A stretch of DNA of 64,000 bases from Watersipora subatra (lineage: Eukaryota > Bryozoa > Gymnolaemata > Cheilostomatida > Watersiporidae), in the NCBI RefSeq assembly GCF_963576615.1, contig NC_088712.1, positions 27,557,870-27,621,869 of the forward strand. Reading direction: 5' to 3'. A model generated the notes under the pieces. That model saw only the letters and a list, made by a program, of their open reading frames with translations. It made no database searches and was not told where the DNA came from. Shown here piece by piece: positions 10,637-54,335 of this stretch; the stretch's first letter is position 1; each line of letters begins with the position of its first letter. The position numbers were made by a program, and so were the translations under genes.

Positions 10637-11092
10637 TTGAGGGATTTTGAAATGTTCCTTCAGAAGTTGTTGCTACTTTTATTCCCAAGCAGTGCAGGAC
10701 TGGTCACCCACATAATAATGTTCTGTATATATATTCCAGCAAGTGGATTTCATTTAGCTGTTGAGCCTTTGAGTGAGTTTTTGTCAAAGCTCACACAGAG
10801 ATATCGAAATGCTAATATATATGTCACCGGTGACTTTAACATGCCGGATATTGAGTGGGAATCGGATGCTTTGGTGAACGTTTCTGGCAAAAACAAACAT
10901 CTGCATCAAAACCTTTTGGACTGTTTCAATGAATTTGGATTTCATCAGTTGGTATCTCATCCAATTCACGTTAAGGGTAACACACTAGATTTGATTTTTA
11001 TTAATTTTGTAAGTAATGATTTGTCTCCTATGGTTATTAGTCGGGGTTTAAGTGATCACTACATGATTGAGTTGGAACTTAGACTTGATTAA
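10637..11092 (+). pseudogene. LINE endonuclease, C-terminal half
   Basis: An open frame ending in AP-endonuclease motifs: VTGDFNMPDIEW (catalytic DFN), LDLIFIN and GLSDHYMIELEL (the SDH catalytic motif). The N-terminal catalytic Glu region is lost or frameshifted upstream of 10690. The frame stops just before the inserted foldback element at 11118. Confidence 0.78.
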
Positions 11093-11117
11093 AGAACTAA
11101 CACTAAGCCTCGACTTG

Positions 11118-14630: not shown

Positions 14631-14673
14631 TAATATATAAATTAATCGAGCGCTTTTCCGGTAAATGTGAAAC
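14631..14673 (+). promoter_or_regulatory. Possible PDCD2 core promoter
   Basis: A TATATAAAT stretch lies about 37 bp before the PDCD2 start codon. That is close for a TATA box, so it may be fortuitous in AT-rich DNA. Confidence 0.25.
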
Positions 14674-15211
14674 ATGGATTTAGGGTTTGCGGAATCCTGC
14701 CCGCAAATCTGGCGGCTATATAGTCAATACTTTCCTTCAAAATTAGGTGGTGCTCCAGCATGGCTTTCGTTCGATTGTTTGCCTGGTTATGAAGAACTTA
14801 AATGTCACGGCTGTCAGACAACATCTAAATTTTTATTGCAACTGTACTCTCCTGGGTCTGAGGAAGAAGATGATTGCGATGAAACTGTCTCGCAAACGTT
14901 TCACAGATCTTTATTTATGTTTGTCTGTGCAAAAGAATCTTGCAATAGTCGAGCCATCAAATGTTTCAGAAGCCAGTTGCCAAGAACTAATCCTTATTAT
15001 AGTTACAAGCCTCCTAATTATGACACTTTTGATCCGTCGTTTTCTCCAAAAAGACCTTTGTCTGGAAAAGTCTGTCATGTTTGTTCTTGCAAGGCTACTA
15101 AACTTTGTGGTGAATGCAAGCTTTACTCATATTGTTCTAAAGCTCACCAAGCATTGCACTGGAAAACTGATCACAAAAACAAATGCGCCAATCCTCCTCA
15201 AGGTGAATTTA
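14674..15211 (+). CDS. PDCD2: PDCD2 exon 1 (PDCD2 N-terminal domain and MYND finger)
   Basis: 538 nt from the ATG to the GTAAGT donor at 15212, phase 1. It encodes residues 1-179, including the whole MYND finger. The donor sits directly against LINE-derived sequence. Confidence 0.92.
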
Positions 15212-33110: not shown

Positions 33111-33432
33111 AGTCAACTCTTGACTATTCCTACTTGGTTTCATAACTCAAACTAGAAAAAGTGCTGCCGCTATTGGCAGCATGCACAAAGAAACACCAGC
33201 AAATTTCCATGACTTGAATGCTAAGATTCTGTATGTGATGAGGTTTTAATATCTATGTAGGAGTTGTCCACTCATTCACAGATGTATCAACCATGCTCAA
33301 GAAATTCATTAAAGAACAAATTCAAGGTTGATTTCAATTTAGCAGCTTCAAGATGGAGCTGTTCAGATTGGATTCCGTTGAGTCTGTGATAAAACTACAG
33401 ATGTTATTTCTCATTGGCTCCATTTACCAGGC

Positions 33433-33440
33433 TATATAAG
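33433..33440 (+). promoter_or_regulatory. TATA box of the His-rich gene
   Basis: TATATAAG lies 37 bp before the start codon, with an inverted CCAAT (ATTGG) about 20 bp further upstream. This predicts a 5' UTR of only some 10-20 nt, typical of a strongly expressed secretory-product gene (inference). Confidence 0.6.
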
Positions 33441-33476
33441 AGCCCTACATCGCCTGCCTACCAACTTCGTCTAAAC

Positions 33477-33518
33477 ATGAAGCTGCTGCTCCTAACTGCC
33501 TGCGTGGCTGTGTCTCTG
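33477..33518 (+). CDS. His-rich gene exon 1: signal peptide
   Basis: 42 nt, 14 codons: Met-Lys, four Leu, then a short hydrophobic run. Donor GTAGGT, phase 0. This start is preferred over an upstream Met because it directly begins the signal peptide and follows the TATA box. Confidence 0.8.
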
Positions 33519-36500
33519 GTAGGTCTAAAATGTAAATTACAGCATTTGGTATTTGTGGGCTTGAACTTTCTGACAGTTGAATGCTGCCTGCTCTTTTTAC
33601 CGAGCTCATCAGCAAATTTATTCAATTATAAATCTACCATAAAACTTCTATTTGAATGCCATGGCAATCTGTTTTAACCCTTTCCCTATAGTGGCGGTCA
33701 AATGGAGGTGGCGTTTACATAGAAGCTGGCATTGTATTTTTCAAATAGCTCGTCAGAATTTTTAGGAAGCTGAATTTAAACCTTTATGTTTTGAACTTTC
33801 CTTTGGTTAGAGCGTCATTACTCTTTTGGATGCAATAAATCTGTTAACTTATCCCGAACTTGTCAAAGATCTGTGATTAAATATGCATTTGGAAGCCGAT
33901 AAATATCTTTACCTTTATCTATTACTCTCAATTAATCTGTGATTATATTATAGCCTGTGCCATGCTTTGCAATTTATTGGAGCTTTTTACTTTTTTGTTT
34001 CATCCTCAATTTGAAGGCATATTTTAATTTTATAATTATATTTAACAACGTTGCATAAAAGCTCATTACACTTATTGATATGTTCACTGCAGTTTGCAGC
34101 CACAACTGGCTTTTTATGTGCGATGGAAGAGGTGTTATGTATATGTCGATCCATTGTAAGCTGAGTTAAGATAAATGCAAGAATGCTTCAAATAATATGT
34201 TATAAATCTGCAAATTTTATAAGTTGTATAATGGTAATCTATTAAATGCTACAATATATATTCAAAGACAAGTGACATAATTGAACTATGCTTATAATAC
34301 ATGCAGAAACAAAAATAATTGCATCATTTGCTCTGCCAGGTTTATTATGATTGCTGCATTCAATGGAACAATCATATTCTGGCTGTTTAATACCTTCCAC
34401 AATGTCTTCTGACTTCAACTCCTTTTTCGCGCAGCTGAACTGGTTGATATTAATGTCCAAACAATTTTTTTAGCCGAGCGAAATTTCTAGGCTTTACATT
34501 TTACACAAATAATAATAAACTTTCAGTCCCATTGGCGCCAAGTACAACTTTAAGCCTAAAACTAGTTGTTCATAGATCATCATCAACGTAAACTATTTTT
34601 CACATTCGTCCAAGTATCAAGGGCCGCTTTAAACAAGGAATTACTATTAGCCTGATATAGTTATTGATTATTTTTATGGTGTTGCTTTCAAAATTTTAAC
34701 AAAAAAGCCTAAAAGTTTTAGAGATGCAAAACAGACTTCGATACGAACAAAAACAACGAAAGAACCAATTATTATTATTTATTTATTGTTATTGATGTAA
34801 CTGAGTCATTATTAGTATGTTTTTGTGAACCTTTTTCTACTGATCATGTGCTCTTAAGGGTTTGTAAAGATCAATGCAAAGGTGTCGGTCAAATGGAGGT
34901 GGCAATCAATTAAAGGGTGGCACTCTATTTTTTAACCCTTCTTTCATGGTGGCGGGCAATTAAAAGTTTTACCGTACATCTGAAAGTCCGTCGTGCGCTT
35001 GTCCAGCTATCGTGATTGAACTTTATCAATAAAAAATCTGCATCACAGAATATTTGATCTCGGAACCTCCCATCCACAAGGTGGCAATCTTACCAATTAA
35101 GCTACACAGGATACAATGGATTCATTGGCAGATAGTCGTTACATGCGTTAAAATAAGCATAACGACGCTGTGTTATGCGCAACATAACGAAAGCTTGCTT
35201 TCACGGCTCTTATTGGTATGTTTAGCAATACATATACTAGCTGACTGAATTAGCTAATGGCACCTAAATTACCTGCCACTGTTTATAAGCTGTTTTTTTA
35301 TTACCCGTGCAACGCCGAGCATTCAACTAGTAATATCCTACAAATTGTTTTGTCGATTAAATTAGTAGTTATTTCCTTTTCATTTTGCAAAGAAGAGATA
35401 ACTTCTAGTCTCTCACCGTATTTGGTTACTATTTTTTGAGCTAATGCAAATACCTTCTATGAAACTATACGTTAAAAGCATTTTGTCAATTTTCGTATTA
35501 CTGTAAACAGCGTGTTAGCATTTTTATTACGAAACAATAGGATTTTATTGCTTTTAAACTACTAGACCTGCCTACTGTAAAGGGCAGAGTGTATGTAGCA
35601 TGCATAGCATATACCCGCATGTATGATTTTGTGTCAGCCCAACTATTTCAAATATTACTTGGATCAATTGACATCAAAACTCTGCAACAATATTTTCTGA
35701 AATGGAAGACCAGCTAGCAGATTTTTTAGCGAACGTTTTATACCATTAGTCTGCTTACAGGTGTGGGCCAGACATGAAACGGATAAAGGGAAAGTTGTAA
35801 GGTAGGTTTTTGTTTGCTCTAACTCACCTCTGCGACTCACCTCTCCTACTCACCTCTCCGACTCACCTCTCCTACTCACCTCTCCGATTCAACTCTGCGA
35901 CTCACCTCCCGACTCGCCTCTCCGACTCATTTCTCCTACTCACCTCTCCGATTCAACTCTGCGACTCACCTCTCCGATTCAACTCTCTGACTCACCTCTC
36001 CGACTCACCTCTCCGACTCACCTCCTGACTCACCTCTCTGACTCGCCTCTCCGACTCACTTTCCAACACAAAAGCTGCTGCCACTCATGCTTGCAGTTTA
36101 AGAATTGATGCTTTTTCTAGCTTGAAGCGAGGAAAATTCTTAAGTAATGACCGGTTTGCGTTAGGCTATTTGAGGAGCAGTTTGTCAGCTAAAATCGTTA
36201 GGAAGTGGCACTGCAAGTTAAAGTGTGATACTGGCAATACTGTGAGGTGTGATACAACATGACTGGCTCAATTTTTACTCAATCAAATTCATGATAAAAT
36301 GCTAATAGAATATGTTGCTAATAGCAACACCAAGTAGTCTCTGAGCATGTTTTTCTTTTAAAAAGTATTTGTTTGTAAGACAACATTCGCTCAAATTAAA
36401 TTAGGTGTGTGCCTAATACATGGTCACGTGACTAATTTATGGTCATCTGGCTACCATAGGGTAATGTGAGTAATATATGCTTATATGACTAATACATGGT

Positions 36501-39500
36501 CATGTGATTAACACATGGTCATGTGGTTAACACATGGTCATGTGACTAATAAAGAAAAATTACCGGTTACCATTCACAATTCTGCTATTGGTCAATTGAC
36601 TGTAGCACCAGTAGGCAGCACCAATGGCTTGCTGCCAACTGTTTTAAGTTCTGTCTGTCAGTCTCATTTCCACTTATATTTCACAAAGTATTGTAGTTAT
36701 AGTCGACTTGAGACAGGAAAATCACTTTTAAATTTCTTTGTTTTACCCGTTAAAAACGGCTTCGTTTTTTTGTGACATCATTTTATGTGAGGCCATCTTT
36801 ATGGACAATTTTATCATTAAAAACACGAAGCTTTTGCAATGAGATTTTGAAAATGATGTTTCTGTTTGCAATTCTTTTATTATAGTATTCAAACAACACC
36901 AAAAAGTACTATTAAATAAAAGAATAACGATCGTTTTCTACAAATATGGCAACTTTTTCGTGAACGAGCGCATGTGTGCTCGTTCGGTTGATGACGGTTT
37001 GATGACGTAAAAAAATTGATGGATTGGAAAAGCGATATTGTAACTCCCATGCAGAATTATTATGCTCCATTTGCAAATAAAGAGGTTGCAGTAAATTGAG
37101 CCCACACTGTGTAATGACATTTCTGGTCTAAAGTCATTTTCTGCAAATTTCAGTTAACACGCTGACTTATATCTGACTATTAAGAGAGTAAATTTGGGCA
37201 AGGGATCAACTTGAAATGACCTTGACCTTGAAATGATTGTGAAGTATCTTATGTGCTTATCGATTCAGCTCTCCCTTTGCCAAACAAATTCAGAGCTTCA
37301 ATGATGCTCTCGATGACATGTTTGCCAAGAGACCAACCGGTAGACCAGATGTCCATCAGTTCATGAAAGACATGGAGAAGAAGTACAGAGAAGCCAAAGA
37401 GATGTTGAAGAATAGTCGACCTACTGGACGACCTACTGGACGACCTACTGGACGACCTACTGGACGACCATTGAAGGCAAAGCATGACATATTCCATGAT
37501 GCGGATAGGCTGGTACATTACGTCATGCTAATAGTAAATTCCTCCCGGTTGGGTTTCAGAGCATAACAACTGAACGTAATGACATGTTAACAGCTGATCT
37601 CACAGACTTGTTTTCTGCTGAACATACAGACATGTTTACGACCGAACATACCAACATGTTTACAGCCGAACATACCAACATGTTTACAACTGAACATACC
37701 AACATGTTTACAACCGAACATATAGGCATGTTTACAACTGAACATATAGACATGTTTACAACTGAACATACAGACATGTTAACTACTGAACATACTGACA
37801 TGTTTACAACTGAACATACAGACATGTTCACAGCTGAACATACTGACATGTTTACAACTGAACATACGTACATTATATGTTTATATCAGGCAATAGGGTA
37901 AGTGATTCTGGAGTATTAAACTATTTTATGTTCAAATTTTAAATCAATTCTAAGTTAACTTTTATTTTAATTGAAGAACACAAGTTACCAAAGTTGCATA
38001 TGTTTGTGTAAAATATAGTGAGGTAATTTTGTCTATTAAATGTTATGCTGTTAAATGCACATGTGTTTAGGTATCATTGGATCAGGTTTGCATCAAGTAT
38101 TCTGATTCATTGTTGAGCAGAGTCAAACCTTGACATCTGAGAAAGATTAATTATTGGTTATTGTTCTTATTCTTTTATTTATTATTTTGTTTTCAAGTCA
38201 TGATTTTTTCACATTTCCTTACAAGCAGCAATGTTTTAAAAATGAGATATAGTATATACAAATGTAGTTATCTGAACTCGGATGTTACTTATTAGTACTA
38301 TAGAGATATACTTATCTGAATTTGCAATGTATCAGCGTTCTTTATACGCAAGGTCAAAGTCAACAAGAGTTCATCACTCAACTTTACATAGTTTATTTTA
38401 CTAGGGTCAAATTATTTTACTGTCTTGTTGAATACAGTTTGAGCAATGTAATTACAACAGAACTGTACATATATAAAGGGTCTTATCTCTAGTTGAAGGA
38501 GCATTATGAAGATGTGAAAGAGAAAGTCGAGGCATGGAAAAAACAAGTTGAAGCGGACGAGCATGCTCACCATGAACACCACGGTTCCCACAGTCACCAA
38601 GATCCCCAAAAGGAACATGACCTGCATAAGAAGCACCCCGAAGATGAGCACACTAAACATTCTAAAACTGATGAGAAAGAGACTTCGTATGTCATTTCCT
38701 CAGTTATACTGCCTGTTGCTACATTTGTCCTTTATTTAAAGCTACACATGTTTTTGTTTGATGCTTTGATCGGAAATCTTTTAGAATGACCCTTTTTTCA
38801 GTTCTCCATATGACAAACAAGTCCAGAGTTTCAAGGATGCTCTCGATGACATGTTCGCCAAGAGACCAACCGGTAGACCAGATGTCCATCAGTTCATGAA
38901 AGACTTGGAGAAGAAGTACAGAGAAGCCAAAGAGCTTTTGAGAGACAGTCACCCAACTGGACGACCCTCAAAGGAGAAGCATGACATGTTTCATGATGCT
39001 GACAAAACAGTAGGTTGTTTTGGTAATATTAATGAAGCAGGCCATGCATAACATTTTTAAAATTTACAAGCTTTGACCTTTATAACTTTTTTATATTTTA
39101 ATTTACATCAAATTTAAATTTAGGTTTTTCATCTTCAACTTTTCCTTTTAACTTTTGTGGCTGCATCTGCACAACATATAGCAAAGATTTTAATGAATGT
39201 ATTGATACCTAGAAAAGAAACTATTTGGATAATTTTCTTGCATAATATATGTAAATAAATTTTGTATAAATCAAAATAAAATTCAGGATACTAAATGTTG
39301 CAGTTGGTGTTAGAATGTGCAGGCCTATTTGCTCCTTTAAACTCTGTGAGTTATAACTTAGGACTATCAATATCTTTCTGTGGTTTTTCTTTGTTTTCAC
39401 TGGGAAGTGAACCCCAACACGTAGCGCACAGGTACATCACTTTCAACCAATAGGCCACAGCTGTCCCCATGTTAGTAAATTATAACATATCATATTAAAT

Positions 39501-42500
39501 TGTACAATTCCAGTCACACCGCCCCTACTCATGCAGTGCCTCAATTCAGCACAATAAATAATCAATAGCAATCGTATTGATCTATTTGCTCCACAATATC
39601 TCCAAATAATTGGATTCATTGTAACCACATGTGAATAGGCATGAATAGCTTTAGAGAGAGTGTAAGATAAAATTGTTAGAATCTTCAAGTACATGTAGTA
39701 ATAACTTGGCTAAAATTGAATTTAGATTTGTCTCCCCCGCCTTGATAGGTTTTGAAGAAATACTGCCAACTGTTAATTTTTAAAGTTGACTTCATCTAAA
39801 TTGAAAGTATAAAAGTTAGTTGTGTCACTTTTATTAGTGGAAGCAATGCTGAGACTTTTTGGGCCCTTTTATCATTCTTAAATATATTTGACCAAAACTG
39901 AATTAAACAGAAAAGGTAATAAATTTTGTTAATTTTTAAAATACCTCACTGATCATATTAATTGTTCATGTCAATATACAGTTAACGCTGCTGGCTTGAA
40001 GCACTGATTTATATGTATTACGACGGTTATATAAGACTAGTACGCTGGCAGACCCGTGTGCCATGAGATATCATCATCATCATGTGTATTAACTATCTGC
40101 ATAATTATCTTGTATTACAGCAAGGCAACTGAGTAGTGCAGTTAGTAGCACGAAAATCTGAAGATCCAGGTTCGATTCTTGTGCAGTACATTCTTTTTCT
40201 CCTATCACTTTTAGCATAGCTTCAAATTGACAAATAGGCATGACTTATTATAGTAAAAATTTACTTCCTAAACTACTGTTTGGTTACACAAGCTATTTTA
40301 AACAGTTCAGATATGGAAAACCCTAGGGAATTCATATCTTTTTTTTACATAGTTTTCTGCTCAATGGCGAGCAAACCGAAATATTAAAAGTTCCTTAATG
40401 AAGAATTACGTTTGATTGAAATGGAGTTGTCTACCCATAACTTGTTTCACGAAATGTGTTGTCACATTTGCTTAACTTTTTAAAGTCATCATATTCTAAG
40501 ATGCAATTTAATTGGCCAAGCTAAATGAGTTTAAACTGGACATGTTCGCGAGATTATATATATTGTATATATAATATATGTATATAATATATATGTATAT
40601 AATATGTATATACTTTTTCCAAAAGAAGGAATATTTGTGTCTGTAGTTGAAGGAACATTATGATGATGTTAGAGAGAAAGTTGAAGCATGGAGAAAACAT
40701 AATCATGTTGACAAGCGCAGCCCCCACGACCACCACAAGCATCATGAACATGGTCATGACGACTCCATGACTCTTCCAGTGAAAATCAGCATAAACTCGT
40801 ATGTCATCTCTTGTATATTATCAATGGAGCCTGCCTAATGTTATAAATATCTTTGATTTTATTACTCAAAGATTTGACCAGAATCTCTCATGTTTATTTC
40901 TCTTTTAGCTCTCCATTTTACAAACAAGTTCAGGGCTATAATAATGCTCTTGATGACATGTTTGCCAAGAGACCAACCGGTAGACCAGATGTCCATCAGC
41001 TCATGAAAGACTTGGAGAAGAAGTACAGAGAAGCCAAAGAGTTGTTGAAAGACAGTCGACCTACTGGACGACCCTCGAAGGCGGAGCATGACATATTCCA
41101 CAACGCCGATGAAATGGTAAATAGCAAGAGAGGACAACTAGGGTTTTATAACACAGCATTGGCTTAAGTAAACAAGTATACATGTATATATATATATGAA
41201 TTTTTCAAAATTGGTTGTGTATGTGTTCAGTTATAGCTATTAAAATCTTGGAATTAAAATTCCACGTTCTGATGGATTTGAACTCATGACAAATGCAACT
41301 GCCAGTTTTTTATCCAGGCGCTCTACCACGGAGCTATATAAGGTCTACCGTACTTTTCAGGCTATAAACCGCACCGCTATATAAGCCGCATCTGCTTTGT
41401 TTTCGAAAAAAAAAAAATAAAACAATACATAGGCCGCACCTTTGTATAGGACGCAGAACTCAGGACGGTGCTTTTTAACGCGGCAGCAACTTTGCTGTTT
41501 AAAACGAAACAGTGCCTAACGGCACTGTTTCGTATTAACCGACGCTTTTTAACCTAGTGTTTAACGGAACAGTACCGTTAGGCATTGTTTCGTATTCTCT
41601 TTCACCGCTAGAGGCACACTAACAGGAGATTCTGGTTAATGCGCCATAGCGGTGAAATAAAAAGCCACAGATTAGCCTCACCCTTATATAAGCCGCATGG
41701 CTCAAATCATCAGACAAAAGTAGCGGCTAATAGTCCGAATAGTACGGTATTATCAAAGATTTTATTGTATACTGCATGCACACGCTAAGTATTTTAGCAT
41801 TGCGCTCCGCGCTACGATGCCCCTGATAAGAAATATTTTTCGTAAGGTTCAATTACTATATCTGGTGTCAAGGCCAACTCTTCTCATGCGGACAATTATG
41901 TTATCTCTGTAGGAAGAGCCTCGACATTCTTTCTGCATTCGGTCAGACAAAGACAGTATGATCTCTCATTTTTGCATTCGTACCCGTATCGAGAGGTGTG
42001 TCGTATTCAAAGTTTTGATGGATAGCTTTTGGTGGAACAGTAACCTTTTTTATACACAAACATTTCTATGCAAGAATTGTTATTATTAATTCAACGTATT
42101 CAGAATTTTTATTTTGTTTTCTCAGTTCATATTAATTGTATAATTACCAAATCATCTCATATTGTGATCGTAGCAAAACAGACTCAACTTAGCTATTACT
42201 TGCTAATTATTTCACATTTACATCTAAACCCTTTTATAGTCGTTTTTTTTAATTTAGTTGTCCAGCACAAAACTTATTCATCATGGTATGAAATTTGGAA
42301 GTTACAGTTGTTTGACAAAGTTTGAAAACCTTTACAGGTTTCAAACTCTAATTATTTCAACTGCACAAAACACTTTTCTCATGAGATGTAGTTTGAAAGC
42401 TAGATTGGCAAATGTTGTTATATGTTAAATACAAATCAATTTTCTGTGCAAAGACTTTTTTATTACCCGAGCAATGCCGGGTAGCACAGCTAGTCGTATA

Positions 42501-45500
42501 ATAAAGGTTGGATTGATCTATTGCCCTGTATGGAAAAATTGGGTCAGTCTGTTGTCTTGTATGGGGAACTTACCGTATATACTCAATTATAGGACGCACC
42601 TTAGTATAAGACGCAGCATAAATTTCAGCCAATTATTGAGAATAAAGGGTATAGGATGTATTCAAGTATAGGACGCACTTCAATCAATCTCTTCACAAGT
42701 GAAATTTTCGCATGATCAATCGATTGTTTTCTCACTTTTAGGGCTCAGTTGACTGACTGACAGGTAAGTTTTAGCGCTTGTAACGCTTTTAAAGATCGCT
42801 TACGTTTGTTGACTGAAGACATTCTTGTTGGGTACTCTGGTCACAATTGATCAAGAAATGATATCTCATGGTAAAATTAGTTTGCTTTATATAGGAATAA
42901 AGAGTAACAGATCGACGAACAATTCCGTAAAATGCAAAATGTACTCGCTCAACAGATCTTTGATGGATGTAAAGATAAAAGATTTCTGATGCTCCAAAAC
43001 AATTAGCAGCTCTTGAAATCAAGATTAGCAACTCACAACTAGTCTTTGACAAAAAATAATTCAAAACAATTGTTGTCAAAATCCTTTATTGATCATCAAT
43101 TTCAAAGAAATTTAATTGCACTTCCGCCCTCTCACAAGTATCAAATGACGCGTCCCCCGTGATTGACGCTGCTGCCACCTCGCGAGTGCAATTGACACCT
43201 GTGAACAAAAAGAAAACAGAAACATGTCAGATTTTTGAGACAACACGTCAAAAAACAAATTTCAGCTCACTACTAGCTAGGCTTATTAAAAATAGTCTTA
43301 AAGTAATGAATTAAATCATTCTTTAATGTCAAGACCGGCTTACTGATATTCTTTTTATATTGCGAGCAATAAGTGGAGTTAAAAACAGTTAAAATCGCCG
43401 CGATTGTCTTCCGTCTACCGAGTGTCCATTCCCCTCTCGTATACATGGTATACGGTATAGCAGTGGCCTGATAATCGGTGCTGCTTCATAGAAACACATG
43501 GCCCCTCGTGGTATGTTGCGATTATAAGACGCAGGTGAAATGTAGGCTGATTTTCAGGTCAAAAAAGTGTGTCCTATAATTGAGTATATACGATAGATTG
43601 GTATATTGGCTAGCATGGTGAAATTGATTGGTCTGTTGCTTTGCTTGGTAAAGTTTAATTGGTTTATTATTTTTTTATAGTGCTATTCCGGTTTGTTATA
43701 ATAAATAATCTAGCTCTCATAGGCTTCTGTCGGTAACATTTTAACCATGAATTTCATGATTGCTTTGTCAGTCATTTTACTGTCTTGTTGAATACAGTTT
43801 GAGCAATGTAATTACAACAGAACTGTACATATATAAAGGGTCTTCTCTCTAGTTGAAGGAACATTATGAAGATGTGAGAGAGAAAGTTGAGGCATGGAAA
43901 AAACAAGTTGAAGCGGACGAGCATGCTCACCATGAACACCCTGAACCCCATAAACACCCTGAACATCATGAACCCCATGAACACCATGAACACCATGAGA
44001 AACATGAACACGACCCACACAAGAAAGCTCCTAAGGACAAGCATCAAAAAGATGACAACTCCATGACTCTTCCAGTAAAAATCAGCGTAAACTCGTATGT
44101 AATTTTCTGTATATTATCACTGGGACTGCCGAATGTTATACATATCTTTGATTTTATTACTCAAAGATTTGACCAGAGTATCTCATGTTTCTTTCTCTTT
44201 TAGCTCTCCATTTTACAAACAAGTTCAGGGCTATAATAATGCTCTTGATGACATGTTTGCCAAGAGACCAACCGGTAGACCAGATGTCCATCAGCTCATG
44301 AAAGACTTGGAGAAGAAGTACAGAGAAGCCAAAGAGTTGTTGAAAGACAGTCGACCTACTGGACGACCCTCGAAGGCGGAGCATGACAAATTCCACAACG
44401 CCGATAAAATGGTAAATAGCAAGAGAGGACAACTAGGGTGTTATAACACAGCATTAGCATAAGTAAACCAATTTATATCTACTATATAAACGGCAATCGT
44501 TGTGTGTGTGCGTGCGTGCGTGTGTGTCCGCCTTATAACGTACCGTACTTTTCAGACTATTGGCCGCTACTAGGTATCTAGGGCGCATTAACGGGTATCG
44601 ACGGTTAATACACACCTCTATACATAACCTATTCATCGTTTGCCGTTTTCACACAAAAATGACGTAATAATTTCAACTCTATGGCTTTCTTTCAGCTTTA
44701 TGACACGCGATGCTTTTTTGTCCTCGACGTATTAGGGCTAATTTGTTTTCAGCAAAACGATATCGACAATAGACTCTTTCGATATTAGATATTGGCGATT
44801 AAATTTTATTAATTCTATGAAACACGATGCCGTTTTTGTGAACCTCTATTTCTGGCTTTTCTTAAGGTTCAAATGCTAAATCGCTGTTAGGGTCACTAGC
44901 ATCTAGATTCTCTCACCTTCGATCAGACAAACACACTACAATATTTTATTTTTACATAACAAATCGTCGTACCGGTATCGTCGTATTCAGAGTTTTGATG
45001 GATAGCTGTTGGTGGAACTGTAACTTTTTATACACACACCTCTATGCAAGAATTGCTATTAATAATTCAACATATTCATGAACTTTATTTTGTTTTCTCT
45101 GTTAGTATTAATTGTATCATTACCGTATCATCTTTTATTGTAATTGTTGCAAAACCGACTTAATTTAGCTATTGCTCGCTGATTATTTGAAATTTACATC
45201 TAATCCCTTTTACAATTGTTTTATTTTTTTAATTCATTAGACTGGCAGAAAACCTTTTCCTCATGATATGAAGTTTGAAAGTTACAGTTGTTTGACAAAG
45301 TTTGATAAACGTTACAGTTGTTTTTATTTTCTCTTAAATTATTTCAACTACACAAAACACTTTTCTCATGATAAGTTACCTATCATGTTTTCTCATGATA
45401 CCTATGTAGTTTGAATGTTAGAATGGCAAATGTTGTTATATTTGTTAAATGCAAATAGATTTTCTGTGCAAAGACTTTTTTATTACCCGGGTACAAGTAC

Positions 45501-48500
45501 AGCTTATGGTGTAAAATGTTTAACATATACTTTACCGAAGTGGTTTTCTCGCCTTGAAGTGGATTAAAATTTACATTATTTTATTTTAACGAGAAAAATT
45601 GTTTCGGATCTTGAACTTATGGAACTGATTATGTTCGAGAACTGAGGTTCCACTATACGTTATCAAAAGATATAGGTCGCTGAAAGTTATGAAATTTTAA
45701 ATTTACATTGGTTTGAAAACCTTTACAGTTGTTTTATTTATTTTTAAATCAGTTGTCCTGCACAAAACCTTTTCCTCATGATATGAAGTTTGAAAGTTGT
45801 AGTTGTTTGAAAAAGTTTGAAAACCTTTACAGTTGTTTTAATTTCTCTCTTGATTTATTTCAACTACACAAAACACTTCTTTCATGATATGTAGTTCAAA
45901 AGTTAGAATGGCAAATGTTGTCATATGTTAAATACAAATCAATTTTGTGTGCAAAGACCATTTTACTACCCGGGTAAAGCCGGGTAGCACAGTTAGGCTT
46001 GGGGCCATGGCGTCACTCGGGGATGCGCGGGAGACCTTTTTTGCCCCGAGTACAGCGAGAGTCTCTAGGCGCAGCTTTCCGGATGAATGAGTTGGCGAGT
46101 GCGAGGCGATTGATTGCAAAGCGATTGAGTGCTAGGCGATTGATTGCGAGGCGATTGGTTGCGAGACGATTGGTTGCGAGTGCAAGGTGATTGATTGCCA
46201 GGTGAGTGGGAGGTGTTTGCAAGGCGAGTGCGAGGCGATTGATTGCGAGGCGATTGATTGCGAGGCGATTGGTTGCGAGGAGAGTGCAAGGCGATTGATT
46301 GCGAGGCGCGCAGGCCGATTGATTGCGAGGCGGGTGTGGGCCGATTGATTGCAAGGCGATTGATTGCAAGTGCAAACCGATTGATTGCGAGGCGAGTGCA
46401 AGAGCGCGATTGTCAACTGCGAGGCGGGTAAAGACTGGTCAGCCGAGGCGGGGGCTCAGCGGCAGAAGTGCGCGATCGTCAACTGCAAATATACATGTAG
46501 ATGGGTATGAACGGATGCATGAATCTAGACACATGAATCTAGAATATTTACTAGATTTTACACGCATCTAGCTGTAAGACACATTGCAGATTTCCATTGT
46601 TCTCCCCAACATTGACATGTATATGTGCATACATTCTCTGTTCAGGACAACAATTTCAGTAGACTGCATATTTGGAGTTGTTTTACAGTATGAAAGACAA
46701 CTCTCAATAAACCTTATGCTGCACGTGAATCTGCTCCTCTAGGCGGGTAATGCAGCTAGTATATATATATTTTTCAAAGTTGTTCGTGTGTATGTGTGCG
46801 TGTCCAGCTATAGCTATTAAAACCTTGCAATTAAAATTCCACGTACTGATTTATTCGAACTCAAGACGAATGCAACGCAAGTTGGTTATCCAGGCGTTCT
46901 ACCACTGAGCTATATAAGGCATATTTATCAAAGATGTTATCGTATACCGAATATTATTTTAGCATTGCGCCCACGCGTTACAATGCCCATGTTAAGAAAT
47001 ATTTTTTGTAAGGTTCAATTACTATATCTTGGGTCAAGGCCAATTCTTCTTATGCGGACAATTATATTATCTCCCTAGGAAAAGCCATGACATTCTCTCT
47101 CCGTTCGGTCAGAAAAAGACAATACGATATCTCATTTTAACATTCGGACTAGTATCGAGAGGTACCAGTATTGTCCTATTCAAAGTTTTGATGGATAGCT
47201 TCTGGTGGAACAGTAACCTTTTTTATATACAAACACTTCTATGCAAGAATTGTTATTATTAATTCAACGTATTCAGGATTTTTATTTTGTTTTTTCAGTT
47301 CGTTTTAATTGTATCATTACCAAATCATTATTTATTGGAATCGTAGCAAAACTGACTTAATTTAGCTATTACTTGCTAATTATTTCACATTTACATCTAA
47401 ACCTTTTGATAATCGTTTTATTTTCTTTAATTTATTTAACCTGCACAAAACCATTTTCTCATGATATGAAGTTCAAAAGTTACAGTTGCTTGGCAAAGTT
47501 TGAAAACCTTTGCAGTTGTTTTTAGCTTCTCTTAAATTATTTCAATTACCCAAAACACTTTTCTCATAATATGTAGTTTAAAAGTTAGAATGGCAAATGT
47601 TGTTATATGTTAAATACAAATCAATTTTCTGTCCAAAGAATTTTTTATTACCCGGGCAATGCCGGGTAGCACAGCTAGTCATATAATAAAGGTTGGATTG
47701 GTCTGTTGCCCTGTATGGTGAAATTGGGTCAGTCTGTTGTCTTGTATGTAGAACTTAGATTGGTATATTGGCTAGCATGGTGAAATTGATTGGTCTGTTG
47801 TAGAGATGCCCGATTCTAAATTCACCAGCCGATTCAGATACCGATCCGATATACCGATCCTAATTGAAAAATAATCCGATTCAGATACCGATTCAGATCT
47901 TTTGTGTTGCATAGATAGTAGCTCATTTCATTATGCAAATACAAACATAATGCAAAGAAAACATGAATATTATTGTATTTATTTGTTTGCATTTATGGAA
48001 AAAAATATATACATATTCACATACTGACATACCGTGCATGTAGTAACAAAACAGTCCATGTTTCTTGTAATTTGTAAATAAAGGTAATTACTGTTAGTGG
48101 TACAGTTCTATCTGTGATAACGAAGTCCCTCTTCTATTGTTGGATGAACTGCTGTGCCTGTACAAGTTTAGAGCAAATCAATGTTTCTTTTAAAAACCGT
48201 TAGTGATTCAATTATCTCAGTAAGACGTCTCTTTTCTTCCATCATTATCAATGTAGCCAAGCGTACTGAAGGGGGATTCCCTTGCAACAGATGTCGGAAG
48301 ACAGGCTACATACCGATACGCCACTGGGGTTACCGTTTTTTGTACAATACAAACGATCCATTGTATCGTCAGGATCAAGAGAGTGATAGATAACTTTATG
48401 CGTCGACTGTTTAAATTACTTTCGTAATGCTAGTAAATAGAAATATTGCACTGCGTTCTTGTTTCCCATTTTTGTTATCTTGTTTGTGATTGCTTGCAAT

Positions 48501-51500
48501 AAACCCTATCGCTGTAATTGGGAAATACCACACTTTTTGTTTACGTTCTGGCTAAAAAGTTTCCTTCGCTGCGTTGATCAGGCTATAGACATGAAATAAA
48601 TTGTGTGGCAGGCCTGAAATTCATTAAGTAAAAGTAAGAAGCTTACAGCTGATGATTTTTTATTAGTATAGCAGGCTAAAATACAGTTTTCTGCTAAATG
48701 GTTGATCTGTAAAAAGTATCGGAAGGTTCAGATTTTTTAAGAAAAGATCGGTCGATACCGATTCAGATACTTGACACTCATATCGGCACCGATACCGATT
48801 CCGATACCAAAATCGGGGCAACTCTAGTCTGTTGTCTTGCTTGGTAAAATTTGATTGGTTTATTATTTTTTATAATTCTACCTCCGGTTTGTTATTATAA
48901 ATAATCTAGCTCTCATAGGCTTCTATTGGCAACATTTTAACTCTGAATTTCATGATTGCCTTGTCAGTCATTTACACTGTCTTGTTGAATACAGTTTGAG
49001 CAATGTAATTACAACAAAACTGTACATATATAAAGGGTCTTTTCTTTAGTTGAAGGAACATTATGAAGATGTGAGACAGAAAGTTGAGGCATGGAAAAAA
49101 CAAGTTGAAGCTGACGAGCATGCTCACCATGAACACCCTGAACACCATGAACCCCATAAACACCCTGAACACCACGAACACCCTGAACCCCATAAACACC
49201 CTGAACCACATAAACCCCATGAACACCCTGAACCCCATGAACATGACCCACACAAGAAAGCTCCCAAGGACAAGCATCAAAAGGATGACAACTCCATGAC
49301 TCTTCCAGTAAAAATCAGCGTAAACTCGTATGTCATTTCTTGTATATTTACACTTGAGACTGCCTAATGTTACACATATCTTTAATTTTATTACTCAAAG
49401 ATTTGACCAGAGTCTCTCAAGTTTATTTCTCTTTTAGTTCTCCATTTTACAAACAAGTTCAGGGCTATAATAATGCTCTTGATGACATGTTTGCCAAAAG
49501 ACCAACCGGTAGACCAGATGTCCATCAGTTCATGAAAGACTTGGAGAAGAAGTACAGAGAAGCCAAGGAGCTGTTGAGAGACAGTCACCCAACTGGACGA
49601 CCCTCAAAGGCGGAGAACGACAAATTTCACAATGCCGATAAAATGGTAATTAGCAAGAGAGGACAACTAGGGTTTTAGAACACAGCATGAGCATAAGTAC
49701 ACAGATGGTATAACTTAGATACCTTGTATAGTGAAATCGGATTGGTCTGTTTCTTTGCGTGGTGAGTTTGGATTGGTCTATTGCTTAGTATGTTGAAATT
49801 GGATAGATCTATCGCTTTGGTAGTGAAATTGGATGGGTGTATTGCTTTGCATATTGATGTTTGTTTGGTCTTCTGCTTTGCATGGTCAAATAGGATCGGT
49901 CTGCTGTTTAGAACGGTGAAACTGGATTGGTTCATGGCTTTTAATTGGTGTATTTCTTTACACGGTTAAACATTATAGTCGGCACCTCATAACATTACAG
50001 TCGGCACCTCATAACATAACTAATCTGTTCTGAGAGCATTTACATTAATTTTTTGTTGTTATTTATTTTATTTATTAGTATTTACTTTTTCATTGAAGCG
50101 TAAAATGTATGTAAATAGCCTCTGTTCCAAGATCTTCTCAAACTCACTCTTTAGAGTCTATAAAAAAACTAACTTTTTAATTTAATGATGTATAGTAAAT
50201 ATGTTATGATTGGTTTTAATGAAAACTTTCCCCTTTTTCCTTTCATCGCTTTCACTTGGTTTAGCCTCCACAATTACGTCAGCTTGACGTTAAGTTCAGG
50301 GTAGCACACACTTTTTATCTGAATTCAATTCAAATTTTCTCATCATCATTTTGCTATAGAAAGAGAAAAAATACTGTACATGTCTCAAATAAATTTAAAA
50401 ACATGTAATAGGTACCCATATCCGTAATTTTCTTCCCAAGTGTGGCAAGAGAAAGAGCGATATTTTTAAGGCTAATTGTAGGGCTCTCCTTAATCAAACC
50501 GGATTTTAAAATTCGCAACGAATTGATGCTTTACCTTATGTAGAATTTCTATGAAATGTATAGCGAAAACTTTATATAAATCTTTGAACTTATGTAGCAT
50601 TTTTGCAAAAAAGGTATACATTATAGAAGTCTTCATATGTATCTTGTATATAAAGATAAAAGTTTGATATTTAAACTAAAGGACTTGTCTTCTATACAGA
50701 TTAATTTACAAGCCAAATTTACCGTAAATCTATAGGTTATATATATTTATATATTATATAGGCTATAACTTTATCTATATATGTATATAATATATATAAT
50801 TATATATACATATATTTACATATATACATGTATATTTATCTATTTATATATTATCTAAGATATAAATTTACTAAATCACTATAAATCACTTTATCATCAT
50901 CATTCCGCATGTAATACCGTATATTGTGGCTGCATTTATTCAAATACAGTAAAACCTTTACATGTATTTACAAAATTAATTCATTCTGCAAGTCATTCCA
51001 TAAGTATAAAATTTCGATGTAAAATGTAGATAAAGAGTTGCTGGCAATGTTGGCAATTTCTCATGTTTTATATGTTTAGGAGTTAGTGAGCAAACCTCAA
51101 GTGTGATTTAGTACAAATCATTTAAAAATATCAACGTGAGTTTCGTAGTTTTGGTCTTTCATTCTTATACTATCAAGACATGTTTAACATCTTAAATGGT
51201 GGATTGGAGATGGCCTATCGCTTTGCTTGGTGAAATGTGGTTGGTCTGTTGCTTTGCATAGTGAAATGGGGTTGATCTATTGCTTTGTATGGTGAAATTT
51301 GGTTGGTCTATTGCTTTGCATGGTGAAATTTGGTTGGTCTATTGCTTTGCATGGTGAAATCTGATTGGTCTATTATGTTGTACATGACTGCCCTTGGCTT
51401 ATAGCTATAAGCTATAAATAAGCCAGCTCTTGTAGGTCTCTAGTTGATGAAGTTTTGCTACAAATTGCATTGGTCCTTTTCCAGCTTTTATTTACTGTCT

Positions 51501-53257
51501 TGTTGAATACAGTTTGAGCAATGTAATTACAACAGAACTGTACATATATAAAGGGTCTCTTTAGTTGAAGGAACATTATGAAGATGTGAAAGAGAAAGTT
51601 GAGGCATGGAAAAAACAAGTTGAAGCAGACGAGCATGCTCACCATGAACACCACGAACACCCTGAACCCCATGAACACCCTGAACATCATGAGCCCCATG
51701 AACACCATGAGAAACATGAACGTGACCCACACAAGAAAGCTCCTAAGGACAAGCATCAAAAAGATGACAACTCCATGACTCTTCCAGTAAAAATCAGCAT
51801 AAACTCGTATGTCATTTTTTGTATATTTACCCTTGAGACTGCCTAATGTTACACATATCTTTAATTTTATTACTCAAAGATTTGACCAGAGTCTCTCAAG
51901 TTTATTTCTCTTTTAGTTCTCCATTTTACAAACAAGTTCAGGGCTATAATAATGCTCTTGATGACATGTTTGCCAAGAGACCAACCGGTAGACCAGATGT
52001 CCATCAGTTCATGAAAGACTTGGAAAAGAAGTACAGAGAAGCCGAGGAGCTGTTGAGAGACAGTCACCCAACTGGGCGACCCTCGAGGGCGGAGAACGAC
52101 AAATTTCACAACGCTGATAAAATGGTAAATAGCAAGAGAGGACAACTAGGGCTTTAGAACGCAGCATGAGCTTAAAGGTTGACTTGCAACAAAATTCACA
52201 TTACAGTTATTTGGTATCAAAAGATTCACCATGTCTTACTCTGTTGTGTTGTAGGTGCCAAATGTGTGGAAAAGTGATTACAAGCTCTTAAAAGCTCAGA
52301 AACGAAAATTAAATGAATTTTTACGGCAAGTTATAAGATATCACTGCTAAAAGTGACAGCATTACAATGACGATAAAACAGACGCGTAAGAACAATAGAC
52401 ATGGTTTTATCGAATGCGTGAAGTGTATTTGTGAGAATATTTCGACGAATAAGGTTGCATGAAAGTGTAAACAGAAACCATTTTTCACAGTTATGTCACA
52501 ATGAGCCGTTTTGGAAAGAGAATCCAAACTACGGCGGTCTCGTGTGGCTGCGATTTTCTGTTCGTTTTTGAGCTTTTAAGAGCTTGTAATCACATTTCCG
52601 CATATTTGGCACCTACAACACAACAGAGTAAGACATGGTGAATCTTTTGATATCAAATAACTGTAATGTGAATTTTCTTGCAAGTCAACCTTTAATGTAA
52701 ACAAATCATGTAATGAAGATTGGATTGGTCTATTGCCTAGCATGTTGAAATTTGATTGGTTTACTGCCTTGCATGGTGAAATTGTATTGATCTTTTGCCT
52801 GATATGAGAAAATTGGATTAGCCTAATACCTTGCATAGTGTTGTTGATTATTCTACATGGAATGTGTTGCGTGGGGACATTTGACTGGACTCTTGCTTTG
52901 CATAGTGATATTTGATTTGTTTATTGATTAACATTGCATTGTTAGCCCTGGTTTATAGTAATAAATAATCCAGTTTTATTAAAGTGTAATTTAATAATGA
53001 TTTTTATGGTTGGTTCTTTCTAGTCTTTTAACTGCATTGTTATTGAATATGGCTTGTGTAATAATATAATATATTAACAATTTCAACAGAACCTATGTCC
53101 TGCTCTTATGTCTAAAATATCTTCTCTCTAGTTGAAGGAACATTATGAAGATGTGAGAGAGAAAGTTGAGGCATGGAAAAAACAAATTGAAGCTGACGAG
53201 CATGCTCACCACGAACACCACGAACATGACCCACACAAGAAGCCACCTCACCATTAA
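33477..53257 (+). CDS. Secreted histidine-rich tandem-module protein, 14 exons, about 866 aa
   Basis: I do not recognise the family. Exon 1 encodes a signal peptide ([14 protein letters not shown]). Exon 2 adds [14 protein letters not shown], giving a likely cleavage after VWA. Then come six B modules (about 69 aa) alternating with six A modules (41-93 aa). [24 protein letters not shown], an amphipathic helix [16 protein letters not shown], a second PTGRP, then [11 protein letters not shown]: helix [20 protein letters not shown], then a His tail rich in HEHPEPH/HHE. Exons: 33477-33518, 35761-35801, B 37269-37512, A 38493-38686, B 38802-39009, A 40647-40798, B 40909-41116, A 43853-44094, B 44204-44411, A 49050-49327, B 49438-49645, A 51565-51806, B 51917-52124, A 53132-53257. 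The 2601 coding nt stay in frame. There is no membrane segment after the signal. Metal or mineral binding through His clusters is plausible but unproven. Confidence 0.85.
33650..33745. repeat. Partial MITE related to 21297-21402
   Basis: Shares CCCTTTCCCTATAGTGGCGG + TCAAATGGAGGTGGCG with the palindromic MITE in PDCD2 intron 3; a further partial copy lies near 34870-34975. Confidence 0.55.
34870..34977. repeat. Partial palindromic MITE copy
   Basis: GTCGGTCAAATGGAGGTGGC near the left and AATTAAAAGTTTTACCGTAC near the right; same family as 21297-21402. Confidence 0.6.
34985..35112 (-). repeat. tRNA-derived SINE copy (-)
   Basis: On the minus strand: TGTAGCTTAATTGGTAAGAT (A-box region), GGGAGGTTCCGAGATCAA (B-box region), then a tail with AGCTGGACAAGC. 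The head is tRNA-like but the structure is too degenerate for a functional tRNA. Confidence 0.55.
35228..35330 (+). mobile_element. Helitron-like 3' end
   Basis: TTTTTTATTACCCGTGCAAC followed by GCCGAGCATTCAACTAG and T: a GC hairpin remnant 10-15 bp before a terminal CTAG. Same terminal sequence type as at 42.49, 45.99 and 47.68 kb. Confidence 0.5.
35761..35801 (+). CDS. His-rich gene exon 2: linker
   Basis: 41 nt between a TCTGCTTACAG acceptor and a GTAGGT donor, phase 0 in and phase 2 out, which is exactly what joins exon 1 to the first B exon. Encodes [13 protein letters not shown] plus two bases. Confidence 0.65.
35820..36062. repeat. 13-bp minisatellite (ACTCACCTCTCCG)
   Basis: About 18 degenerate units of ACTCACCTCTCCG with TTCAACTCTGCG variants, starting about 20 bp after the donor of the linker exon. 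Confidence 0.9.
36410..36548. repeat. Degenerate repeat TGGTCATGTGACTAATACA
   Basis: Six or so irregular copies of a block of about 19-25 bp containing CATGGTCATGTG; intronic in the His-rich gene. Confidence 0.7.
37269..37512 (+). CDS. B module 1 with expanded PTGR repeat
   Basis: 244 nt, 36 nt longer than the other B exons (208 nt). The extra length is three more 12-bp units CCTACTGGACGA, giving RPTG repeated four times before RPLKAKHD. Acceptor GATTCAG, donor GTACAT. Confidence 0.85.
37580..37872. repeat. 24-bp minisatellite, 12 copies, open on both strands
   Basis: Unit ATGTTTACAACTGAACATAC + AGAC. 24 is a multiple of three and no stop occurs in the unit in these frames, so both strands show long open frames with an 8-residue period. 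It lies in the intron after B module 1 and continues no exon frame, so it is not coding. Confidence 0.9.
38493..39009 (+). CDS. A module 1 (38493-38686) and B module 2 (38802-39009)
   Basis: A1 encodes [20 protein letters not shown], a His/Asp/Lys tail ([14 protein letters not shown]...) and ends DEKET, lacking the MTLPVKIS end found in A2-A5. The intron is 115 bp. B2 starts [18 protein letters not shown] and ends HDADKT. Phases 0-2 and 2-0. Confidence 0.85.
40647..41116 (+). CDS. A module 2 (40647-40798) and B module 3 (40909-41116)
   Basis: A2 is the shortest internal A exon (152 nt) and the most divergent: [18 protein letters not shown] replaces the usual [16 protein letters not shown]. 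It ends [13 protein letters not shown]3 reads [18 protein letters not shown]. The sequence upstream of A2 lacks the block conserved before A1, A3, A4 and A5. Confidence 0.85.
41195..41340 (-). repeat. tRNA-derived SINE copy (-) in Helitron-like copy 1
   Basis: Minus strand: TAGCTCCGTGGTAGAGCGCC (A box), GAGTTCAAATCC (B box), tail ATTCCAAGATTTTAATAGCT. It looks like a tRNA gene head, but the acceptor stem does not close, so it is a SINE. Confidence 0.65.
41346..41749. mobile_element. 400-bp MITE with TA duplication and an empty site elsewhere
   Basis: Element 41348-41747 with TIRs CCGTACTTTTCAGGCTATAA and inverse CCGTACTATTCGGACTATTA, flanked by TA. The paralogous sequence at 46915-46930 is uninterrupted and has a single TA. 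GCCGCA-rich subterminal motifs are typical of a widespread mariner-type MITE. Confidence 0.88.
42571..43595. mobile_element. 1021-bp MITE with TA duplication and an empty site elsewhere
   Basis: Element 42573-43593 with TIRs CCGTATATACTCAATTATAG and inverse CGTATATACTCAATTATAGG, flanked by TA. The paralogous intron reads GAACTTAGATTGG (47752-47764) without the insert. Confidence 0.9.
43600..43680. repeat. Intronic repeat TTGGTCTGTTGCTTTGCATG (about 28-bp unit)
   Basis: Units of type GATTGGTCTATTGCTTTGCA + TGGTGAAA occur in tandem or near tandem here and at 42520-42565, 47690-47800, 49725-49965, 51205-51375 and 52715-52935, always in introns of the His-rich gene. Confidence 0.7.
43853..44411 (+). 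CDS. A module 3 (43853-44094) and B module 4 (44204-44411)
   Basis: A3 (242 nt) carries a proline-spaced His tail such as [20 protein letters not shown], then [16 protein letters not shown] and MTLPVKIS. B4 is nearly identical to B3. Preceded by the conserved block ACTGTCTTGTTGAATACAGT...TATAAAGGGTCTT. Confidence 0.87.
44478..45996 (+). mobile_element. Non-autonomous Helitron-like element
   Basis: Starts TCTACTATATAAACGGCAAT after an A, a common Helitron 5' type, and ends ACCCGGGTAAAGCCGGGTAG + CACAGTTAG. It contains an MITE-end fragment (CCGTACTTTTCAGACTATTG near 44542) and two internal repeats of TTTGAAAACCTTTACAGTTG. No coding capacity seen. Confidence 0.55.
46005..46475. repeat. GC-rich 15-bp repeat cluster (CGATTGATTGCGAGG)
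   Basis: Irregular array of CGATTGATTGCGAGG and CGAGTGCGAGG units, clearly more GC-rich than its surroundings. Gives artefactual open frames ([12 protein letters not shown]) on the minus strand. It directly follows the Helitron-like end at 45996. Confidence 0.85.
46765..47678 (+). mobile_element. Helitron-like composite copy 2
   Basis: Collinear with 41190-42493 but without its MITE insertion. It ends ACCCGGGCAATGCCGGGT, then CTAG at 47675-47678 followed by T. A SINE head (minus) is at 46785-46925. A separate 3' end with CTAG at 46756-46759 abuts its left side. Confidence 0.6.
46785..46925 (-). repeat. tRNA-derived SINE copy (-) in Helitron-like copy 2
   Basis: Minus strand: TAGCTCAGTGGTAGAACGCC (A box, very close to a real tRNA), GAGTTCGAATAAATC (damaged B box), then the tail with TAATAGCTATAGCTGGACAC. 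Confidence 0.65.
47793..48834. mobile_element. Non-autonomous hAT element, 1026 bp, with 8-bp duplication
   Basis: Element 47801-48826 with TIRs TAGAGATGCCCGATT and inverse TAGAGTTGCCCCGATT, flanked by GTCTGTTG on both sides (47793-47800, 48827-48834). The paralogous intron has a single GTCTGTTG near 43632. Subterminal CCGATACCGATT repeats occur at both ends. Confidence 0.92.
49050..49645 (+). CDS. A module 4 (49050-49327) and B module 5 (49438-49645)
   Basis: A4 is the longest A exon (278 nt) because of extra [12 protein letters not shown] units in the His tail. B5 ends with [12 protein letters not shown]. Splice sites TTTCTTTAG, GTATGT, CTTTTAG and GTAATT. Confidence 0.87.
49985..51200. 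other. Intron of the His-rich gene, AT-rich, nothing clear
   Basis: Contains a TATATA-rich inverted patch (50735-50870) and possible MITE remnants near 50000 and 50630. No exon-like stretch between B5 and A5. Confidence 0.4.
51565..52124 (+). CDS. A module 5 (51565-51806) and B module 6 (51917-52124)
   Basis: A5 (242 nt) is close to A3 with one Arg in the His tail ([11 protein letters not shown]). B6 has [21 protein letters not shown] foldback transposon begins 52 bp after the B6 donor. Confidence 0.87.
52172..52695. mobile_element. Foldback element copy 3 (516 bp) with TTAA flanks
   Basis: Element 52176-52691 with the same TIRs as copies 1 and 2 and TTAA on both sides. The interior is in the opposite orientation and shorter, lacking about 350 bp. 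Located 52 bp after the B6 donor. Confidence 0.9.
53132..53257 (+). CDS. A module 6, terminal exon
   Basis: 126 nt after a CTTCTCTCTAG acceptor: the A helix, a short tail [14 protein letters not shown] and then PPHH followed by TAA. The His tail is cut short, so the protein ends within an A module. Confidence 0.85.
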   Translation: MKEHYEDVREKVEAWKKQIEADEHAHHEHHEHDPHKKPPHH

Positions 53258-53484: not shown

Positions 53485-54297
53485 TGATTAGCACCTAAAG
53501 CTATACAGTCAAACCTAAAGATCTACAGTCAAACCTAAAGATGTACAGTCAAACCTAAAGTCCTACACTCAAACCTAAAGCTATACAGTCAAACCTAAAG
53601 CTATACAGTCAAACCTAAAGATTTACAGTGCAACCTAAAGGTATACAGTCAAACCTAAAGGTGTACAGTCAAACCTACATAAAGATGTACAGTCAAACCT
53701 AAAGCTATACAGTCGAACTTGAAGATGTACAGTCAAACCTAAAGCTATACCGTGAAACCTAAAGGTATACAGTCAAACCTAAAGGTATAAGTCAAACCTA
53801 AAGATGTACGGTCAAACCTAAAGCTATGCAGTCAAACCTAAACCCGTACAGTCAAACCTAAACCCGTACAGCCAACTCTAAAGCTATACAGTTAAACCTA
53901 AAGATGTACAGTCAAACCTAAAGCTATACAGCCGAACCTGAAGGTGTACAGTCAAACCTAAAGCTATACAGTCAAACCTACATAAAGATGTACAGTCAAA
54001 CCTAAGGCTATACCGTGAAACCTAAAGCTATACAGTCAAACCTAAAGGTGTACAGTCAAACCTAAAGGCATACAGTCAAACCTAAAGGTGTACAGTCAAA
54101 CCTAAAGCTATACAGTCAAAGCTATACAGTAATACCTAATCTATACAGTCAAACCTAAAGATGTACAGGCAAACCTAAAGCTATACAGTCAAACCTAAAC
54201 CCGTACAGTCAAACCTAAACCCGTACAGCCAAACCTAAAGATATACAGTCAAACCTAAAGGTGTACAGTCAAACTTAAAAGTGTACAGTCAAACTGC
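53485..54297. repeat. 20-bp minisatellite, about 40 copies, after the His-rich gene stop
   Basis: Unit ACCTAAAGATGTACAGTCAA with CTATAC, GTGTAC, GTATAC and CCCGTAC variants. It starts about 230 bp after the stop, and the first AATAAA downstream is at 54330, so the array may be transcribed in the 3' UTR. Confidence 0.93.
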
Positions 54298-54329: not shown

Positions 54330-54335
54330 AATAAA
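54330..54335 (+). terminator. Possible poly(A) signal of the His-rich gene
   Basis: AATAAA, the first canonical hexamer after the stop at 53257, lying just past the 20-bp array. A non-canonical earlier signal is possible. Confidence 0.35.

Follow-up and report, generated by a model that had tools for sequence, protein, structure and literature searches.

The stretch of DNA analysed here (the window) comprises 64,000 nucleotides of the bryozoan Watersipora subatra, corresponding to C5:27557870-27621869 in genome coordinates, and contains a gene of 14 exons on the plus strand (33477-53257; positions are those of the window unless a prefix is given) for a predicted secreted protein rich in histidine. 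Its repeated unit carries the motif RPTGRP, which is also found in an uncharacterised protein named P0001 here, and related units are encoded by two shorter genes lying downstream, referred to as genes 2 and 3.

Gene model and growth of the repeat array

The gene model was rebuilt from the genomic sequence of the window. Its exons join in one frame to 866 codons followed by TAA, no exon contains a stop, and one signal-peptide exon and one stop exon were found. All 13 introns run from GT to AG, and the exon phases are 0 / 0-2 / (2-0, 0-2) five times / 2-0, 0-stop, giving a predicted product in the order signal peptide, linker exon and six pairs of an A and a B exon. A sequence-only reading had proposed 14 exons with good splice sites, one frame and 866 residues, which was confirmed at every coordinate, and its proposal of a signal peptide and six repeats within a single gene was borne out by the exon structure. 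The features of the gene are as follows:

33430..33445, plus strand: TATA-box-like element GGCTATATAAGAGCCC, recognised by sequence, about 45 nucleotides before the ATG
33477..33518, plus strand: exon 1, predicted signal peptide, phase 0 donor
35761..35801, plus strand: exon 2, linker, phase 0 to 2, in place and phases as in the DEDETEVIS linker exon of gene 3
37269..37512, plus strand: exon 3, A1, with helix 1, RPTGRP loop, helix 2, expanded RPTG repeat and start of helix 3 (match to a hidden Markov model, HMM; helices by homology to models of P0001)
38493..38686, plus strand: exon 4, B1, remainder of helix 3 and histidine-rich arm (12 His)
38802..39009, plus strand: exon 5, A2 (HMM match)
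40647..40798, plus strand: exon 6, B2, arm with 9 His
40909..41116, plus strand: exon 7, A3 (HMM match)
43853..44094, plus strand: exon 8, B3, arm with 17 His
44204..44411, plus strand: exon 9, A4, identical to A3 at 206 of 208 nucleotides
49050..49327, plus strand: exon 10, B4, arm with 20 His
49438..49645, plus strand: exon 11, A5 (HMM match)
51565..51806, plus strand: exon 12, B5, arm with 16 His
51917..52124, plus strand: exon 13, A6 (HMM match)
53132..53257, plus strand: exon 14, B6, terminal, stop TAA, arm with 9 His
54330..54335, plus strand: AATAAA, candidate polyadenylation signal

Five A exons measure 208 nucleotides, and A1 reaches 244 nucleotides through three extra RPTG units of 12 nucleotides each (4.4 copies of the repeat by Tandem Repeats Finder). 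The five internal B exons range from 152 to 278 nucleotides and are all 2 modulo 3, so that the frame is kept through every change in B-exon size; lengths differing by multiples of three bases are the pattern expected of repeat expansion under frame constraint.

After removal of the 12-codon insertion in A1, the ratio of nonsynonymous to synonymous substitution (dN/dS) lay at 0.07-0.27 in 14 of the 15 pairs of A exons, indicating purifying selection; the pair A3-A4 shows no synonymous and two nonsynonymous differences. The helix stretch of the B exons spans only 63 nucleotides and therefore gives no firm dN/dS, and within it B2 is relatively diverged, with 7-9 nonsynonymous and 2-5 synonymous differences from the other B exons. 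Judged from the sequence, the gene model is well supported, and the gene looks real, with A exons that appear to be constrained as protein.

The introns bear on how the array arose. The short B-to-A introns measure 109-115 nucleotides; introns 2-5 are 88-98% alike, and the first is just 65-70% like them. The long A-to-B introns have their ends in common, and a stretch of 843 base pairs in intron 3 recurs in intron 4 at 85%. Over its 3' end, the first of the long introns matches three others at 96-100%, even though the first short intron has diverged, which suggests gene conversion. These paralogous introns support duplication of an A+B cassette, and since such a cassette has equal phases at both ends, copies insert without a frame break. 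The array would thus have grown by duplication of this phase-symmetrical cassette, and short repeats within the arms would have expanded afterwards.

Two further repeats were observed in or near the gene. The last long intron contains an inverted repeat of 143 nucleotides (52172-52314 and 52553-52695, 94% complementary), perhaps a small mobile element, and a minisatellite of 20 nucleotides in 40 copies (53493-54294) lies between the stop codon and AATAAA, perhaps in the 3' untranslated region.

The RPTGRP unit and its relatives

Protein searches covered about 5.8 billion proteins; those that found P0001 and P0003 scored only the candidates sharing most words. Of 7,992 candidates scored, P0001 (477 residues, JGI set, E 6.4e-51) alone reached E<=0.001, and of 470 candidates P0002 (95 residues, ENA set, E 4.9e-19) alone reached E<=10. 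P0003 (296 residues, JGI set, E 3.9e-9) and P0001 were the sole proteins at E<=10 among 7,994 scored candidates. All three are uncharacterised and share with the window protein the RPTGRP-bearing unit, which is about one third identical. P0001 and P0003 also have a DETE-type linker like that of gene 3, whereas P0001 differs from the window protein in having no poly-His arms. There are five RPTGRP motifs in P0001 and seven in P0003, which has a different arrangement and an RPTGRP-dense segment that also contains histidine. P0002 starts with SSPYAAHI and ends with ARDD at A-exon boundaries, followed by V-S-W as a GTAAGT donor would give, and reads as a translated genomic A exon.

When the six units of the window protein were aligned with four from P0001, an A exon and about 20 residues of the B exon were seen to form one unit of about 93 residues. 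The two groups show 100% identity in the six columns of RPTGRP and 30% in the others. AlphaFold2 models were made of P0001, alone (mean predicted local distance difference test score, pLDDT, 67.1) and with eight aligned sequences (71.8), and in both each unit is predicted as three helices, the first two joined by a loop with RPTGRP. The second model has pLDDT <50 over most of residues 82-100, where the RPTGRP of the first unit lies, and its third unit has a helix 3 that continues into helix 1 of the fourth. By homology to these models, the third helix of each window unit would be divided by the A/B intron.

The sequence-only reading had described alternating A modules (PTGRP) and B modules (helix and poly-His). 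Helical PTGRP and histidine-rich parts do exist, but they are not independent modules, as the A exon and about 20 B residues make up one three-helix unit and the rest of the B exon is the histidine arm. The conserved part is the RPTGRP unit and not the B module, for neither P0001 nor the paralogue with one unit has poly-His arms. The RPTGRP family proposed here comprises genes with a three-helix unit carrying RPTGRP, A exons of phase 2-0 and B exons of phase 0-2; the window gene has the motif in its sequence and both phases, and the helices are predicted for P0001 only.

Foldseek returned nothing at E<=0.001 for either P0001 model. Among the top weak structural matches of the first model were several spectrin repeats and other helical proteins, with scores within helical-bundle noise. 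Since structural scores are at chance level for helical bundles, predicted three-helix units are claimed here, without assignment to a known fold or to a new one. The window protein resembles spectrin-type repeats in its predicted tandem three-helix units and differs from them by the signal peptide and the RPTGRP loop, and no spectrin family of Pfam was listed to E 1 for the window protein, P0001, P0003 or gene 3. Two matches to PDB sequences, one of a single unit to TRIM25 (E 0.005) and one of the profile to a designed helical protein (E 0.002), appear to reflect chance resemblance among helices and were rejected.

For a single unit of 150 residues, Pfam lists four families, all below cut-off. 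For the whole protein, 16 families are listed to E 1, five of which (Uds1, VPS28, DUF2524, Osmo_CC and WS_DGAT_C) lie above their cut-offs; these were rejected as coiled-coil composition summed over six similar repeats, because one unit stays below every cut-off. Uds1 scores 47.5 bits with the whole protein (cut-off 28.8), 19.4 with one unit and 10.7 with P0001. The earlier statement that the protein fits no named family therefore stands for the single unit, but the protein is not an orphan, as it has the relatives P0001-P0003 and belongs to a local cluster of three family genes. No relative was found in viral contigs scanned with an alignment or in genome contigs scanned with P0002, and Rfam gave no match in the window. 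By title or abstract, the open-licence literature held nothing relevant on PTGRP or RPTGRP and no paper on such a gene for bryozoans and histidine-rich proteins, with analogues at most.

Neighbouring paralogues and other features

The two paralogous genes lie about 22-34 kilobases (kb) downstream on the same strand (L015:1700 to L016:1276 and L016:2134-4154; C5:27.633-27.645 Mb), and their A and B exons have the phases of those of the window gene. Gene 3 is complete (exons L016:2134-2178, 2414-2460, 3518-3731 and 4095-4154) and encodes 121 residues, namely a signal peptide, a DEDETEVIS linker and one unit with RPAGTP replacing RPTGRP, followed by the stop and without a poly-His arm. Gene 2 encodes two units by an A, a B, an A and a terminal B exon (L015:5460 to L016:1276), the last of which ends in the poly-Asp tail GKGHDDDDDDYY. 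Its signal-peptide exon likely lies at L015:1700, followed by GTAAGT; a filtered search for its linker exon gave no candidate.

The window and 100 kb of flanking DNA (5,447 open reading frames, ORFs) were scanned with HMMs, one of which was built from the four P0001 units and P0002 only. This HMM matched all six A exons at E 7e-17 or better, L016:3381 at E 5.7e-12, L015:8759 at 1.7e-4 and L015:5428 at 3.6e-4; the best match outside the three family genes had E 0.39, and the best in ten residue-shuffled control sets E 0.19. The exon at L015:8759 had first been picked by eye from the ORF list and was then tested with the HMM. An HMM of window, P0001, P0002 and P0003 units gave E 0.0024 for L015:5428 and E 0.01 for L015:8759, and one of window units alone gave E 2e-6 for L016:3381 and E 1.1 for L015:5428, with L015:8759 not among the matches listed. 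The assignment of L015:5428 and L015:8759 is thus less clear with the other HMMs, and the phases and terminal B exon of gene 2 add support to it. Within the window and the flanking DNA examined, no other exon stood out as belonging to the family.

Genome-wide searches (assembly of 783,720,542 bases in 239 contigs) used two queries only, the third A exon and P0001, and the resulting count of paralogues is incomplete. For the third A exon, at least 10 candidates were scored and at least six matches were found at E<=0.001, all inside the window gene. P0001 matched six exons of the window gene and, weakly, C5:27644524 (E 0.03), C5:27636511 (E 3.5) and C1:44528580 (E 7.9, two stops). The two weak sites on C5 were afterwards among the exons put to the HMM.

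Other features were noted in the window and its flanks. LINE-like endonuclease and reverse-transcriptase fragments occupy 10634-13653 on the plus strand, and an ORF with a MYND finger (14671-15234, plus strand), which we take to resemble PDCD2, is overlapped by a reverse-transcriptase frame (14747-16213). Minisatellites of 47 (5444-6149), 22 (17892-18631), 34 (19811-20458) and 28 nucleotides (28226-28779) were found, as was a weak match to an integrase H2C2 zinc-binding domain (54905-55258, plus strand; 17.9 bits, below the curated cut-off of 25.5). In the flanking DNA, two ORFs on the plus strand (L014:5723-6664 and L014:9721 to L015:668) are alike by eye and form a second local duplication, the former with a weak SOCS-box match (21.2 bits, cut-off 23.5). 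An exon of an actin-family protein (L021:4645-4902, plus strand) lies about 5 kb upstream of the window.

Possible function outside the cell

Counted from after AWKK (or AWRK), the six arms measure 24-75 residues, hold 9-20 His each and together contain 83 of the 109 His of the protein, with many HxH, HxxH and HH spacings; they also contain Glu and Asp. The one Cys among the 866 residues lies in the signal peptide. The computed isoelectric point is 6.8, and cleavage of the signal peptide after residue 17 would leave a product of about 101 kDa. The sequence SMTLPVKIS(I/V)N closes arms B2-B5, so that four of the five inner boundaries between units carry an N-S-S sequon, although the Pro that comes next may weaken its use. 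From the signal peptide and the composition, respectively, we infer secretion and metal binding.

The favoured reading, held with a confidence midway between doubt and acceptance, is a secreted helical scaffold with metal-binding arms, composed of six three-helix units of the RPTGRP family. The protein would be extracellular, its helices would form a beaded rod, and the RPTGRP loop that joins helices 1 and 2, which does not vary, would be a likely recognition surface. The flexible arm that follows each unit, with its high content of His, Glu and Pro, may coordinate divalent metal ions (Cu, Zn or similar), and the multivalent scaffold might buffer or carry metal outside the cell or cross-link via metal. 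The rod, the role of the loop, the metal binding and the physiological role are all points that we infer.

Among known systems, mammalian histidine-rich glycoprotein (HRG) has cystatin-type domains and one His/Pro region, and Mytilus HRG / EP has a C1q domain; the 16 Pfam families that the window protein lists to E 1 include neither a cystatin nor a C1q family. By the domains tested, the predicted protein belongs to neither family. It resembles mammalian HRG as a secreted protein with a His/Pro tandem-repeat region by composition only (signal peptide, six arms, 83 His) and differs from it by having six arms that alternate with helical units, and the likeness to Mytilus HRG / EP is that of a secreted histidine-rich invertebrate protein. 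Metallothionein has many Cys, in contrast to the single one here. The tandem repeats of mammalian HRG are described as binding Zn and Cu (PMC5372734), and the Mytilus protein as being related to metal transfer and believed to act in shell formation (PMC6530089). The best reading is that the window protein is of the secreted histidine-rich repeat kind on an uncharacterised scaffold, and would work like the histidine-rich glycoproteins with an unrelated scaffold.

Several observations weigh against this favoured reading. The gene model is a prediction from genomic DNA, and the structure models are of modest confidence and concern P0001 rather than the window protein. The poly-His, poly-Glu and poly-Pro stretches could be products of slippage under weak constraint. 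P0001 and the one-unit paralogue have no poly-His arms, and metal binding by arms is therefore probably derived and not the original function of the family. The core of the metal-response element (TGCRCNC) is missing within 1 kb upstream of the gene, so there is no sign there of MTF-1-type induction; three cores, two of them overlapping, lie at 1.0-1.5 kb upstream, and the rate in the window is 0.45 per kb.

Alternatively, and with a minority share of the probability that is still appreciable, the gene may encode a structural or adhesive matrix protein, in which helical rods and RPTGRP loops bind a polymer of cuticle, skeleton or substrate and the histidine arms harden via metal. The large, repetitive and multivalent product with a signal peptide and almost no Cys would suit this role, the unchanging RPTGRP loop has the look of a binding surface, and the genus is reported to foul vessels (PMC3514011); the paralogue of 121 residues with one unit, however, is small and non-repetitive for a matrix polymer. 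A regulator of biomineralisation, whose acidic and histidine-rich arms would bind calcium as well as the surfaces of the zooid's calcified wall, is rather unlikely. The mussel protein believed to be active in shell formation (PMC6530089) would be a precedent. The tail GKGHDDDDDDYY of the two-unit paralogue and the Glu and Asp within the histidine arms also fit such a role, whereas the computed isoelectric point of 6.8 does not. Moreover, His binds calcium poorly, and proteins of the skeletal matrix typically have a more acidic composition.

Less probable again is a carrier of lipids or small ligands, in which the unit would be an amphipathic helical bundle like apolipophorin-III and the histidine arms secondary: a one-unit form with a signal peptide exists and gene 3 has a weak ApoLp-III match (E 0.025, 15.2 bits), but this score is far under the curated cut-off of 36.3, and ApoLp-III is not listed for the window protein, P0001 or P0003. 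That the exons belong to several genes or to a decayed, unexpressed array, as long introns with shared repeats and exon joins read from the genome might allow, is very improbable in view of the single signal-peptide and stop exons, the fit of all phases, the lack of internal stops and dN/dS <0.3 among A exons.

The scaffold with metal-binding arms leads to one further idea, which is a distinctly long shot: the six histidine arms might serve as an extracellular copper/zinc sponge that aids the tolerance of Watersipora to copper antifouling paint, on an enlarged member of a helical family that also has an armless one-unit form. The number of cassettes or the length of the arms may vary between populations. 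The genus is reported to be highly copper tolerant (PMC3514011), and the available portions of PMC3060921 and PMC9666713 show no molecular mechanism of this tolerance; a link of the gene to it is speculative.

The analysis thus defines a helical domain family with RPTGRP units, whose proteins have signal peptides and whose single units have no Pfam match above cut-off. It shows a route to six units by cassette duplication beside sister genes with one and two units, and it offers a specific candidate for the handling of metal outside the cell in a genus described as highly copper tolerant (PMC3514011).

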